From NCBI GenBank assembly GCA_021846365.1, contig JAJZXC010000005.1, forward strand, positions 1-33,430: a stretch of 33,430 bases of DNA, read 5' to 3'. The first letter of the stretch is position 1; the number at the start of each line of letters is the position of its first letter. The translations under genes were made by a program, and so were the position numbers. The DNA is from Bacillota bacterium. GTDB lineage: Bacteria; Bacillota; Sulfobacillia; Sulfobacillales; Sulfobacillaceae. The notes beneath the pieces are model-generated. The model saw nothing but the letters and a program-made list of their open reading frames with translations. It did not search any database and was not told the DNA's origin. Positions 25,085-33,304 of the stretch are shown here, one piece after another.

Positions 25085-26189
25085 CTTTCACCTTGCGCAA
25101 AATACTGCGGTCCTCGGCCAGCACCGATTCATCACGCAATTCCGCCCACTGCCGCATCAATTCGCGCTCTTTGGCCGAAAGCTGGGAGGGCACCTGAACA
25201 GTAATTCGCACGTGCAGATCTCCCCGAATGGAGGGACTGCCAAGGCGCGGAAAACCTAGCCTGGGCACCCGAAACACCGTGCTCGGCTGGGTGCCGGGCG
25301 GAATATGGATCGTCTCCCGGGCCCCGATTCCCTCCACCTCGACATCTGCCCCCAGAACCGCCTGGGCAAAGCCGATGGCAAGGTCGATAACCAGATCTTG
25401 GCCCTGACGCCGGAACGCTGCGTGCGACTTGACGTGCACCAACACCATCAAATCTCCAGGAGAACCGCCGCGTTGACCAGCCCCACCTTCTCCCGGTACC
25501 CTGAGCCGGGTTCCGTCTTCGACCCCCGGGGGGACGGTGATGGTGATGCGCTTTTCAGCCCTGACTTGGCCACGCCCGCGACACTCCCGGCAGGGCGTGC
25601 TCACCGTCTTGCCCGTGCCTCGGCACTGCGGACAAGTTTCGATTTGCCGCACCCGGCCCAACAAACTGTCGCGAATGTACTCGACCTGGCCTCCCCCGTG
25701 GCAGCGTCCGCACGTCTCAATCCGCGTGCCGGGTTCAGCCTGGTTGCCGTGACAACGGGGGCACACGTCATCGCGGACCAGCCGAATCTCCCGTTCTACC
25801 CCCGTCATCACGTCTTCCAAGTCGATCGTGAGGTCCGACCGCAAATCGGGACCGCGCTCGGGCCCGGGGCGCCCACCCGCTCCGCTGCCGCCGAAAAACA
25901 TATCGAAAATGTCGCCAAACCCGCCGAATCCTCCGAAATCGGTCTGCCCAAAATGATATCCCGGGCCGGCGCCTTGGGTGCCGAACTGGTCGTATTGCGC
26001 ACGCTTGTTGGCGTCGCTCAGCACCTCGTAGGCTTCGTTCAATTCTTTAAACTTTTCTTCGGCTCGGTCATCCCCGGGGTTGGCGTCCGGGTGGTGTTTC
26101 CGGGCCAGCCGGCGAAAAGCCTGTTTAATCTCGTCTTCTGACGCGTTCCGGCTTACACCCAGGACATCGTAATAATCTCGATTCGCCAT
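25068..26189 (-). CDS. dnaJ: Chaperone protein DnaJ
   Basis: J domain with HPD, G/F region, four CxxCxGxG-like repeats. Confidence 0.98.
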
Positions 26190-26217
26190 ACCCGTTCCTC
26201 CCTATCGGCGCCCAGCC

Positions 26218-26859
26218 CTATTGTCCGTCATCGGACGTTGCTGGCGCGTCTTCCTCCTGCCCTGCGCCGGATGACACTTTCACCAACGCAGCGCGCAACA
26301 CGCGGTCTCGCCAGCGAAACCCCTTTTGAACCTCTTCGGCTACTATGCCTTCCGGCCAGGTACTTTCCACCTGCTGCACCGCCTCGTGAAGCGATGGATT
26401 GAAGGGATTGCCTACGGTAGCGATGGACTGGACGCCCAGTCTCGCCAACGCCTCGTTGAATCCGTTCAAGGTCATTTCCACGCCGACCCGCCACGCCTTG
26501 GCCTCTCCCTCGGTCGGCATGAATTTTACCGCTCGCTCTAAGTTATCGTACACGGGCAGCAAGTCGTGCAATATTCGGTTAATAATTTGCGTTTCGCTTT
26601 CCAACCTGTCCCGTTCTACCCGGCGGCGAAAATTTTCGAAGTCCGCTTGCAAGCGAACCAACTGTTCGTATCTGTTTTCAGCCATACCTTGCCAGTCGAC
26701 CTCGGGTTCAGCTTCGCCTTCCTCAGCTTCGACATCGGCCGCTTCGTCCCCGCCATCCGCATTCACCGCCTGCGGCTGACTATCCTGGTTGGCTCCCACC
26801 GTCGCGTCCTTCTTGGCTTCCGGATTTTCGTGCTCGGCTGCTGTGTCTTGTTCCCTCAT
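26218..26859 (-). CDS. grpE: Nucleotide exchange factor GrpE
   Basis: RLQADFENFRRRVERDR; LLPVYDNLERAVKF; FNPSLHEAVQQVES. Confidence 0.97.
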   Translation of the reverse strand: MREQDTAAEHENPEAKKDATVGANQDSQPQAVNADGGDEAADVEAEEGEAEPEVDWQGMAENRYEQLVRLQADFENFRRRVERDRLESETQIINRILHDLLPVYDNLERAVKFMPTEGEAKAWRVGVEMTLNGFNEALARLGVQSIATVGNPFNPSLHEAVQQVESTWPEGIVAEEVQKGFRWRDRVLRAALVKVSSGAGQEEDAPATSDDGQ

Positions 26860-29312: not shown

Positions 29313-31112
29313 CTAAGATTCGTCTTCCGCCCTCAAAATGGCCATAAAAGCTTCTTGGGGGATCTCGACGTTTCCCACCGATTTCATCCGCCGCTTGCCC
29401 TCCTTTTGCTTTTCCAGCAGCTTACGCTTTCGCGTAATATCCCCGCCGTAACATTTGGCTAGTACGTCCTTGCGCAGAGCACGAACCGTTTCCCGCGCAA
29501 TCACTTTGCTTCCAATGGCCGCTTGAATGGGCACTTCAAAGAGCTGACGAGGTATCAACTCGCGAAGTTTGGCCACTAACGACTTGCCTTTGGGGTACGC
29601 TCGCTGACGATGTACGATGGCGGACAGCGCGTCGACGGCCTCTCCATTCAGCAGAATATCCATTTTGACCAGGTCGGCGGGTTCCATCCCCGCCGGCTGA
29701 TAATCCAACGAGGCATAACCGTGGGTCCGACTCTTCAACTGATCAAAAAAATCAAACATAATTTCCCCCAATGGAAGCCGATAGGTGAGCATGGCGCGTT
29801 GGGGGTCGAGATAGGTGAGCGCATGATATTCACCGCGGCGCTCCTGAGAGAGTTCCATCACGGCTCCGATATATTCCGCCGGGGTGATGATGCTGACATC
29901 CACCACCGGCTCCAAGATCTCACTGATCTCCCCCGCCGGCGGCATCATTGAGGGGTTGTCTACCCGCACCGTCTGACCGTTGGCAAGGTTAACTTGGTAG
30001 ACCACGTTGGGCGCGGTAGTAATCAGGACGAGGCCGTACTCGCGCTCCAGGCGTTCTTGGACGATCTCAAGATGTAAGAGCCCCAAAAATCCTGCCCGGA
30101 AACCAAACCCTAAGGCCAGGGAGGTTTCCGGCTCAAAGGTCAGCGCGGCGTCGTTGAGCTTAAGTTTTTCTAAAGCCTCTCGCAATCGCGCATAATCCCC
30201 CGATTCAACCGGATACAGGCCGGAAAAAACCATGGGCTGGGCAGGTCGGTATCCCGGCAGGGGTTCCCGTGCCCTAGGCTGGGCCAGCGTGACCGTATCG
30301 CCCACCCGCGTGTCCTGCACGCTCTTGATCTGCGCCGCCAAATACCCCACTTCTCCGCAGCTGAGATCGTCCACCGGGGCCAACTCGGGCCGAAAGACTC
30401 CGACCTCGATCACCTCAAACTCCTTTTCGGTGGCCATAAACCGAATGCGATCGCCAACCGCTACCCGTCCGTCAACCACTCGTACAAACACCAACACGCC
30501 TTTGTAACTATCGAAACGCGAATCAAAAATCAGCGCCCGCAAGGGATTGTCCAGGTTACCCGCCGGGGGCGGAATCCTGTTCACGATGGCGACCAGCACA
30601 TCGTCGATGCCAATGCCCTGCTTGGCCGAGACCGCCAGTGCCTCGGTGCCGTCAATCCCGATTTCAACCAGATCTTCGCGCACGCGGTCGGCGTCCGCGC
30701 TTGGCAGGTCGATCTTGTTGATGACAGGTACCACGGTCAGATCGTGTTCCAGCGCCAGGTACAGGTTGGCCAAGGTCTGGGCTTCGATCCCCTGCGAGGC
30801 GTCAATCACCAGCAGCGCCCCCTCACAGGCGGCTAACGCGCGTGACACCTCGTAGGTGAAGTCCACGTGGCCCGGGGTGTCGATCAAGTTGAGTTTGTAG
30901 GTCTGACCCGAGTGCTCCCAGTTCAGGCATACCGCCTGGGCTTTGATCGTGATACCCCGCTCGCGCTCCAGCTCCATGGAGTCCAACAATTGGGGGGCCA
31001 TGTTACGCGCTGCCACCGCACCTGTACGTTCCAAAATGCGGTCAGCCAAAGTCGATTTGCCGTGGTCAATGTGAGCAATGATGCAAAAATTTCGGATGTG
31101 CGCTGAATCCAC
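29313..31112 (-). CDS. lepA: Elongation factor 4 (LepA GTPase)
   Basis: [39 protein letters not shown]; LePA C-terminal domain [26 protein letters not shown]. Confidence 0.98.
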
Positions 31113-31145: not shown

Positions 31146-31418
31146 CTATGGTAGCAACTCACCGGCCGCTTGAAAAGCCAGCGCCCGCGGTTTTCTCGGA
31201 TTATGGACCTTGGCGTGAATACCTTGTTCCCCGCAACAGACGGGTACTGTGAGGGGGCTCCACAAGATTCGCCAGACCGGCCGCCCCCGGTGCTCGACCC
31301 GATAGACCGCCGCCTCTGGGGCAGCAGAATTAAGCGCAGCTTCACCGTCGCGAAAGAAGACACGCCATTCATCATCAATCAATCGGAGGGCATAGGGCGA
31401 ATCGAAGGTCTGAGGCAA
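31146..31418 (-). CDS. Hypothetical protein
   Basis: 90-aa ORF between rpsT and lepA, TTG start, weak RBS, no recognised family. Confidence 0.4.
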   Translation of the reverse strand: MPQTFDSPYALRLIDDEWRVFFRDGEAALNSAAPEAAVYRVEHRGRPVWRILWSPLTVPVCCGEQGIHAKVHNPRKPRALAFQAAGELLP

Positions 31419-31535
31419 CCGAAGAACTCTTCAGCAAATAACGGCGTCATTGGTCAATTGAATTTTGGGTCAGAAACGGCGGGAGCTTTCATCCCCATCC
31501 AGCAGGAAGATAGACAGGGACGAAAGCCTTGATGT

Positions 31536-31808
31536 CTAAACAGCCTGTCGGCGCTTACTCAGTTTTCGGGCTAGGCGCGCTTTGTGACGGTTGGCGTTAT
31601 TGCGGTGAATTACGCCTTTTTGCGCCGACCGGTCGAGTCTGGCGTACACCGTTCGCAAAGCCTGCTCGGCCGCAGTCAGATCCCCTTGGTTTAAGGCGTT
31701 CTCAAATCTCCGGATGGCGGTTCGAAACATGGTTTTCCGGATTCGGTTGCGGAGCGTACGCACCTTGGTCTGCCGGATGCGCTTCTTCGCTGACTTAATA
31801 TTGGCCAC
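31536..31808 (-). CDS. rpsT: 30S ribosomal protein bS20
   Basis: (M)ANIKSAKKRIRQTKVRTLRNRIRKTMFRTAIRRFE... GTG at 31808 sits 6 nt after AGGAGGT; the track ATG (31814) directly abuts the SD. Confidence 0.95.
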   Translation of the reverse strand: MANIKSAKKRIRQTKVRTLRNRIRKTMFRTAIRRFENALNQGDLTAAEQALRTVYARLDRSAQKGVIHRNNANRHKARLARKLSKRRQAV

Positions 31809-31923
31809 TCGCATACCTCCTCAACGGAGTATAGCAAATTGTTCAGGACTGGTAAAGCGTCCCTGTCGTGCAGCGGTGACCAGAGTCAGGGAGGAGCGGC
31901 GACCTTCAGGCTCACTGGACCCG

Positions 31924-31952
31924 GAATAATGCTCCAACATTTACCATATCCA
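31924..31952 (+). promoter_or_regulatory. Candidate sigma-E-type promoter upstream of spoIIP
   Basis: GAATAAT-N14-CATATCCA; near match to kmATATT-N14-CATACAmT with consensus spacing. Confidence 0.4.
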
Positions 31953-31987
31953 TCGGTAAGTCGGAAACCAACGGCGGGAGGACAGAC

Positions 31988-33223
31988 GTGGCGAAGCAGC
32001 GACGGATACCGCGTATGATATGGCTGCCAGGAACGCGCCGACAGCGCCGGCGTCCCACTCGGGTTGCCGGAGACTCCGGCTCGCACCGGGACAAACTGGG
32101 TCGCGACCTCGGCGGCAAGCGACCGCCTAGGTCATACGGGGTGTTGGCAATGTACATCAGCACGTTGGCGGCAGTAGGAGGGATTTTGTGGGCTACCCCG
32201 CGACCTAAGCAGGGGGCCGTCCCCGTAACCGCGCCCGCGTATGCAAAGCAGAACGGCCCGGGTTTGGGACGTTGGCTGGCTTCCACCCGCGTCAGCTTGG
32301 CTTCGGCCGAAGCTTGGTTGCGCGCAGGGGTTCCCCTGTACCGCCTGGTGGTTCCCCAACCCGTCCCGGCTTCATGGTCCAGTTGGTTGGCAGCGGGAGT
32401 CACCGCCGCGGCAGGGACCCGAATTAATTCCCTGCAAAGTCTCCTTGGGCAAGAAATACCGGGACTCAAAGGGGCCCCGGCCCCGTCTCGTCCGCCGCGA
32501 CCACGGTCAGCCAAGCATCATCCTCGGGCTGCCACCATGGCGGAACTCCCCGGCGCTGGCCACCGGATTTGGGCAGTCTTAGGGCGAGCACCTGCGATAG
32601 GCATTTTTCAGACCCGGAGCACGGAATCGTTCTGGCCTGTGCTTGCTGCGGGTCGAGCCACCGCGACCACCACCGACTGGTCCAAGACCGTGGTAGCGGT
32701 GGGATGGACGCTGGCGCGCGATTTGCACCAGAAAGGGCTGATGGTCGTTCAGTCTCGAGTGAACAATATGACCGACGGCCTGCTGGCTAGCGACTATCAC
32801 GCATATCGAACCGCCGAGCAATTAAAGCGGCGCTATCGGACCCTGAAGGTATTACTTGACGTTAACCGGGCCACCGTCAACGTGCCCTCGGTTACGATCA
32901 ACGGCCAAGCAACGGCCCGAATTACCTTGATCGTGGGCACCAACACCGTGTTGCCAGACCCCACCTGGCGCCGGGATTATGCCTTTGCTCAAATCTTGAC
33001 TGCCGACCTGAGGCGGATCGCACCGGGGATCCTCGGCCGTCCGGCGATCATGCGGGTGCCATATCGCTATAACGAGGAAGTGATGCCCTTGGACTTGGTG
33101 GTGCAGATCGGCGGGCCCAACAACACTCTTAGCCAGGAGATGGCGGCGGCGGGAGACCTTGCCGCCGCTCTTAAGACGGTTCGGGATCAGGGATGGCTAA
33201 AGACCTCGCCTGCTCAGGCCTAG
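31988..33223 (+). CDS. spoIIP: Stage II sporulation protein P homologue, predicted catalytically inactive
   Basis: 411 aa, N-terminal TM; STESFWP, TDWSKTVVAVGWTLARDL, ARITLIVGTNTVLPDPTWRRDYAFAQIL, IGGPNNTL match SpoIIP architecture. GTG start with GGGAGG 6 nt upstream. Confidence 0.85.
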   Translation: MAKQRRIPRMIWLPGTRRQRRRPTRVAGDSGSHRDKLGRDLGGKRPPRSYGVLAMYISTLAAVGGILWATPRPKQGAVPVTAPAYAKQNGPGLGRWLASTRVSLASAEAWLRAGVPLYRLVVPQPVPASWSSWLAAGVTAAAGTRINSLQSLLGQEIPGLKGAPAPSRPPRPRSAKHHPRAATMAELPGAGHRIWAVLGRAPAIGIFQTRSTESFWPVLAAGRATATTTDWSKTVVAVGWTLARDLHQKGLMVVQSRVNNMTDGLLASDYHAYRTAEQLKRRYRTLKVLLDVNRATVNVPSVTINGQATARITLIVGTNTVLPDPTWRRDYAFAQILTADLRRIAPGILGRPAIMRVPYRYNEEVMPLDLVVQIGGPNNTLSQEMAAAGDLAAALKTVRDQGWLKTSPAQA

Positions 33224-33266
33224 GCAACGTGCCCAAGATTTGGCAGACGCTTTGGCAACGAAAAGT

Positions 33267-33304
33267 TTGTCTCCACAAGGGAGCTGCTATAATGTGATTA
33301 ATCA
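33267..33304 (+). promoter_or_regulatory. Candidate promoter (TATAAT at 33288-33293) with adjacent palindrome TGATTAATCA (33295-33304)
   Basis: Perfect -10 hexamer; weak -35 (TTGTCT, 15-nt spacer); perfect 10-bp palindrome at the expected start site. The driven gene would lie outside the window. Confidence 0.4.

Follow-up and report, generated by a model that had tools for sequence, protein, structure and literature searches.

A catalytically degenerate SpoIIP kept under purifying selection in Sulfobacillales genomes lacking SpoIID

Within a window of 33,430 nucleotides (the whole stretch of DNA analysed here, taken from a draft genome of the family Sulfobacillaceae), we identified a spoIIP orthologue whose reading frame is intact and whose product, 411 residues long from a GTG start, has lost both of the histidines that are essential in this engulfment amidase-endopeptidase, together with the glutamate of its third motif. 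Judging from these residues, catalysis is very likely absent from the protein, as regards the amidase step. Engulfment is considered to require catalysis by SpoIIP, and single His-to-Arg mutants arrest sporulation in Clostridioides difficile. Lineages in which the same inactivating change has become fixed alongside a sporulation gene set provide a natural test of the engulfment force, posing the question of whether the engulfing membrane advances by peptidoglycan hydrolysis or by another force, such as wall synthesis or the SpoIIIA/Q zipper.

The locus and its active-site residues

The source genome is a draft of 3.0 Mb in 275 contigs, 97% complete and 2% contaminated, and its named relatives within the family are Sulfobacillus harzensis, S. 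thermotolerans, S. benefaciens and S. acidophilus. The initial annotation, made from the letters alone, had described an intact frame and a preserved SpoIIP scaffold; its coordinates and residue numbers proved correct, and the scaffold is borne out by a match to Pfam PF07454 (E = 7.9e-27; 94.9 bits against a cut-off of 24.4) and by a predicted Amidase_3-like fold. Against the NCBIfam model TIGR02867 the same protein scores 82.7 bits, below the curated cut-off of 123.15. Four degenerate proteins score 82.7–120.4 with this model, while four canonical proteins pass at 130.6–206.2. As the degenerate copies fall below a cut-off used by annotation pipelines, spoIIP may be mistakenly reported as missing from their genomes, and the cut-off may have hidden such members so far. 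A search for a second, intact spoIIP, which the initial annotation had proposed, found none in the 275-contig, 97% complete draft and none in relatives from the same order, throughout which spoIIP is a single-copy gene.

Table 1. Features of the spoIIP locus, with positions numbered along the window
Feature	Position	Strand	Basis
lepA, on the rpsT side of spoIIP in the window	29313..31112	-	
rpsT, divergent neighbour marking the orthologous locus	31536..31814	-	96% identical to G001
sigma-E-like promoter, ATAAT-N14-CATATCCA	31926..31952	+	pattern match upstream of spoIIP
ribosome-binding site GGGAGG, 6 nt before GTG	31976..31981	+	read from sequence
spoIIP orthologue, catalytically degenerate	31988..33223	+	ORF reading, Pfam match
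predicted N-terminal membrane helix, residues 49-69	32132..32194	+	hydrophobic AF2 helix
SpoIIP domain, residues 199-395, predicted Amidase_3 fold	32582..33172	+	Pfam, AF2, Foldseek
motif 1 QTRSTES, residues 208-214; catalytic His replaced by R210, Glu213 kept	32609..32629	+	
motif 2 DVNRA, residues 291-295; catalytic His replaced by N293, D291 and R294 kept	32858..32872	+	
motif 3 QIGGPNNTLSQE, residues 373-384; Glu replaced by Q373 and Q383, E384 kept	33104..33139	+	

The rpsT–spoIIP neighbourhood is conserved, with rpsT identities of 60–85% among relatives in the order and the closer value given in Table 1 for G001, a separately assembled genome of the same genus. In G001, G006, G010 and G014 lepA lies downstream of spoIIP, unlike in the window, where it borders rpsT. 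Relative to G001, the rpsT–spoIIP pair is inverted in place (31,178–33,287), and the sequence 3′ of spoIIP in the window matches what comes after rpsT in G001; this is either a real local inversion or an assembly artefact. Further along the window, dnaK is not present between grpE and dnaJ (26,189–26,218), two genes that are also close together in G001, G006, G010, G014 and G035.

Each of the five genomes in the clade to which the window belongs (genera g1, g6 and g10, hereafter the degenerate clade) has a sigma-E-like promoter upstream of spoIIP; a chance match per shuffled upstream region is expected at about 0–0.005. A stricter first pattern had missed the promoter of the window, and the looser one, found at 7 of 58 loci against 0.56 expected, was picked after viewing the alignment of the window with G001; we therefore take the match as supporting evidence for the degenerate clade only.

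No solved SpoIIP structure was found by sequence search. In the AlphaFold2 model, the core domain has pLDDT values mostly above 90 and the linker following the N-terminal helix is of low confidence. A Foldseek search of the PDB with this model returned Amidase_3 amidases first (Rv3717/Ami1, E = 3.4e-7; also CwlD, CwlV and AmiB), as did the model of the canonical S. thermotolerans orthologue. An Amidase_3-like fold is thus predicted with high confidence, along with an N-terminal membrane anchor. In the model, a core strand precedes R210 and two further strands have N293 and Q373 at or close to an end, the geometry of the site being judged from secondary structure and fold matches only.

The three motifs read IFQ208-T-R210-STESFW, LLD291-V-N293-R-A and VVQ373-IGGPNNTLSQE384. 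None of 15 canonical SpoIIPs from the same class deviates from YHTHxxE, DxHRD or ExG, so that the substitutions are real departures. Alignment with canonical SpoIIPs places R210 on the second histidine of HTH (C. difficile H142) and N293 on the histidine of DxHRD (C. difficile H222), in agreement with the initial annotation. In C. difficile, H142R, the very exchange seen at R210, and H222R each gave no amidase products and arrested sporulation (PMC6221140), and both catalytic histidines are reported to be strictly conserved across orthologues from Bacilli and Clostridia (PMC6934232). The ExGG glutamate is Q373, as had also been noted, and a further glutamine occupies position 383 of GgxxNxxxE, adjoining the order-invariant E384. 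The published third residue, C. difficile E309, sits in GgxxNxxxE, corresponding to position 383 and not to ExGG. A profile alignment with Amidase_3 sets DxHRD on the zinc-histidine motif and ExGG (373) on the catalytic glutamate, at a probability of 2%, a very weak comparison that we use as a pointer only. The C. difficile enzyme carried no bound metal by ICP-MS (PMC6221140).

Part of the divergence is older than the inactivation. Q208, which the initial annotation had counted among the inactivating changes, occurs throughout family f1, also in Sulfobacillus proteins whose QTHSxES, DxHR and ExGG are intact, and the first histidine of HTH is conserved only in Clostridia, the second (H142) being catalytic (PMC6934232). 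The aspartate of HRD is lost order-wide, also from Sulfobacillus proteins whose site is otherwise intact, so both changes predate inactivation, and what is specific to the clade of the window is that both essential histidines are gone. E213 (of TES), D291 and R294 are retained, and loss across the active-site loops is incomplete. The description of all signature catalytic positions as substituted thus stands for the two histidines and the motif-3 glutamate but not for the ancestral Q208, nor for the three retained residues.

Relatives show that the state is not peculiar to one assembly. G001 reads QTR/DINR/QIGG, so that genus g1 (the window and G001) combines R/N with E373Q and keeps E213; genera g6 and g10 read QTF/DVQR, that is, F/Q plus E213Q with E373 kept; and no member has lost D291, R294 or E384. 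Sequencing error as the source of the substitutions, which the initial annotation had named as a possible refutation, was rejected on these grounds. No alternative acid is common to g1 and g6/g10, which disfavours a rebuilt active site.

Recurrence, genomic background and selection

We searched 42 genomes of the order for SpoIIP. On a species tree of concatenated RpoB and RpoC, which groups g1, g6 and g10 with an SH-aLRT of 100, loss of both histidines needs four independent changes: one in that clade, one in G037 (genus g14; QTE/DIQR), one in Candidatus Hydrogenisulfobacillus (G035; HTF/DVAR/RIGG) and one in G057 of another family (HSI/DLER), with lineages bearing intact motifs separating the last three from the first. 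A SpoIIP tree computed without the active-site columns again needs four changes and disfavours a single clade at a borderline AU p of 0.043, long branches such as that of G057 weakening the gene tree. A single origin of all degenerate copies was accordingly rejected. Degenerate copies occur in eight genomes, one of them closed (G035, 2,570,337 bp), and none of the eight contains a stop or frameshift. Across the wider class (G042–G060), most non-Sulfobacillus members have two to four SpoIIP paralogues, some with a variant motif 3 such as GSHQVSRSQ in G054.

Every degenerate SpoIIP sits in a genome without SpoIID. Neither the PF08486 profile nor a SpoIID protein query gave a match in the genome of the window, and the same profile, with a repeat query using the G041 protein, found SpoIID in no genome of the order other than G041; neither search detected one in G057. 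A divergent SpoIID overlooked by Pfam was rejected, the protein query also being without match. The only SpoIID of the order (G041:C26:87-1199) lies at the start of a 77 kb contig in a genome that is 7% contaminated, and is either a retained ancestral gene or contamination; the SpoIIP of G041 carries HTH. Sulfobacillus has been reported to be without SpoIID and SpoIIQ (PMC7924749). As S. harzensis is nevertheless endospore-forming (PMC8489842), sporulation without SpoIID does occur in the family. The genome of the window encodes two Amidase_3 and two M23 proteins. Counts of both are equal in degenerate and canonical members, with no extra hydrolase specific to the clade, and a clade-specific replacement among these families was therefore rejected.

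In the degenerate lineages, sporulation is predicted from gene content. The genome of the window encodes SpoIIM (101 bits, above the cut-off), SpoIIIAH, four SASPs and SpoIVA, and a single contig carries matches to Spo0A, SpoIIIAA, SpoIIIAB, SpoIIIAD and SpoIIIAE as well as SpoIVB and SpoIIM. G036, the sister of G037, is without SpoIIP, SpoIIM, SpoIIIAH, SASP and SpoIVA all together, which indicates that SpoIIP is lost with sporulation and not with its active site. G036 and G047, both devoid of this set and of all Amidase_3 proteins, are apparent complete losses of sporulation. A study of Ca. Hydrogenisulfobacillus filiaventi R50 observed no formation of spores (PMC10080006).

The dN/dS comparison among close relatives that the initial annotation had suggested gave about 0.23: 0.22 between the window and G001 (dS 0.82) and 0.235 between G006 and G014 (dS 0.11), neither dS being saturated. 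Canonical spoIIP pairs with usable dS gave 0.055 and 0.084 in family f1 and 0.224 in one f2 pair, placing the degenerate genes at 2–4 times the canonical f1 orthologues, and SpoIIM, SpoIIIAA, SpoIIIAE and Spo0A of these degenerate genomes are mostly at 0.05–0.16. Relative to RpoBC, the SpoIIP domain has diverged about twofold faster in the degenerate clade than in canonical members. Among 68 positions that do not vary between 27 canonical members of the family, 49 keep their residue in each of the five degenerate-clade genomes. The degenerate spoIIP is under partial relaxation with strong remaining constraint, and, considering its dN/dS, these conserved sites, its promoter and the accompanying sporulation genes, the gene is not decaying. 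The initial reading of a pseudoenzyme whose scaffold is preserved, as opposed to decay, is well supported by histidine loss, fold, constraint, recurrence and the lack of a second copy, but taken as a whole it is supported in part, Q208 being ancestral and selection measurably relaxed; the partner recruitment within the engulfment machinery that it suggested is one putative role. Its meaning is altered by two facts beyond the sequence then read, namely that the genome has no SpoIID and that the loss recurs. A FolD-like protein (L195:8757-9737) has unusually high dN/dS in degenerate-clade genomes, 0.41 and 0.32, where a canonical pair gives 0.05.

Possible roles of a SpoIIP without its catalytic histidines

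We favour the explanation, and judge it reasonably probable, that a catalytically dead SpoIIP, anchored in the membrane and facing the peptidoglycan, has been retained as a structural component of an engulfment machine that works without SpoIID. Under this proposal SpoIID, a glycan cutter that needs the denuded strands made by SpoIIP, and whose absence we observe, would have been lost early in the order; denuded strands would then have been worth less, and the catalytic histidine pair could have become dispensable and been lost repeatedly, a step behind which stand the four double-histidine losses, all on SpoIID-less backgrounds. The fold, membrane helix, promoter and most core residues have remained under purifying selection, presumably because SpoIIP has kept its affinity for the septal wall or for partners, SpoIIM and the SpoIIIA complex among them. 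We infer for the protein of the window a retained scaffold or wall-binding role, in which bound SpoIIP may guide or ratchet the membranes as they migrate, remodelling being left to wall synthesis or a different hydrolase. Since loss of both histidines recurs, and always where SpoIID is also missing, engulfment in the degenerate lineages probably proceeds without the textbook cutting step; the same pattern suggests a rule by which loss of the second enzyme, SpoIID, frees the first, SpoIIP, from catalysis. A bolder extension, which we advance only tentatively, is that the whole order engulfs without the SpoIID–SpoIIP wall-cutting engine, with SpoIIP repeatedly turned into a non-catalytic scaffold and with wall synthesis or tethering, not processive hydrolysis, as the drive.

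The twofold faster divergence and 2–4-fold higher dN/dS count against this structural role in that they also fit slow relaxation. Decay is the most serious rival: hydrolysis would be unneeded or sporulation fading, and SpoIIP an eroding remnant with no positive role. Besides these rates, it could draw on G036, where SpoIIP and other sporulation genes are missing in the sister of a degenerate genome, and on R50, which has not been seen to sporulate (PMC10080006). We nevertheless consider it unlikely, because dN/dS stays far below 1 at dS up to 0.82, all eight degenerate copies are free of stops and frameshifts, the 49 sites, fold, membrane helix and promoter are retained, and other sporulation genes in the same genomes have ordinary dN/dS, mostly 0.05–0.17. 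Less probable still is a re-engineered site, in which peptidoglycan would be cleaved through other residues (for example E213, D291, E384 and R210) or by endopeptidase activity only. Retention of D291, R294 and E384 in all members would suit such a site, and the lack of bound metal in C. difficile SpoIIP leaves the chemistry uncertain (PMC6221140); but two known catalytic histidines and one acid are lost, the acid differs between g1 and g6/g10, and the remaining order-invariant residues are invariant in canonical members too, so that no new conserved set has emerged.

That another hydrolase, a CwlD-like Amidase_3 or an M23 protein, took over catalysis with SpoIIP as its activator or docking partner strikes us as improbable to a high degree. 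Candidates exist in the two Amidase_3 and two M23 proteins of the genome, the predicted SpoIIP fold resembles amidases seen in partner complexes (CwlD–GerS, AmiB–EnvC), and amidase activation by LytM proteins that are themselves inactive is known from EnvC, but the equal counts in canonical relatives mean that no new hydrolase marks the degenerate clade. We give almost no credence to a sequencing or assembly artefact, or to an intact copy missing from the draft: fragmentation and 97% completeness would leave room for one, but the separately assembled G001 has the same residues, the closed G035 is among the eight degenerate genomes, and spoIIP is single copy across the order.

Relation to known systems

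No paper in the literature searched pairs SpoIIP with ‘pseudoenzyme’; for ‘catalytically inactive’, in the part of the literature that was checked, a passage of PMC3533761 concerns LytM domains of other proteins. The protein of the window resembles SpoIIP as known from the SpoIIDMP amidase-endopeptidase (PF07454/TIGR02867) in its Pfam match, rpsT neighbourhood, helix, fold, single copy and accompanying sporulation gene set, and differs in the substitution of both catalytic histidines and the motif-3 glutamates, in the absence of SpoIID and in a TIGR02867 score of 82.7; of the SpoIIDMP complex, its genome has SpoIIM and not SpoIID. The nearest comparison is with canonical Sulfobacillus SpoIIP (S. 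harzensis, S. thermotolerans), which belongs to the same family, also has QTH for HTH and also occurs without SpoIID, but which, unlike the window, keeps the second motif-1 histidine, the DxHR histidine and the ExGG glutamate; these orthologues pass TIGR02867 at 131–141 bits. The Amidase_3 amidases (Rv3717/Ami1, CwlD, CwlV) share the predicted fold and are active zinc enzymes, whereas the residues that align, in a weak alignment, with a zinc ligand and the catalytic glutamate are absent in the window. A precedent for keeping a hydrolase fold without catalysis in the engulfment apparatus, for localisation, is offered by the degenerate LytM domains of SpoIIQ and SpoIVFA, as described in a passage of PMC3533761. 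These have the unrelated M23 fold and their inactivity is the rule in Bacilli, whereas that of SpoIIP, as proposed here, would have arisen several times from an enzyme thought essential.
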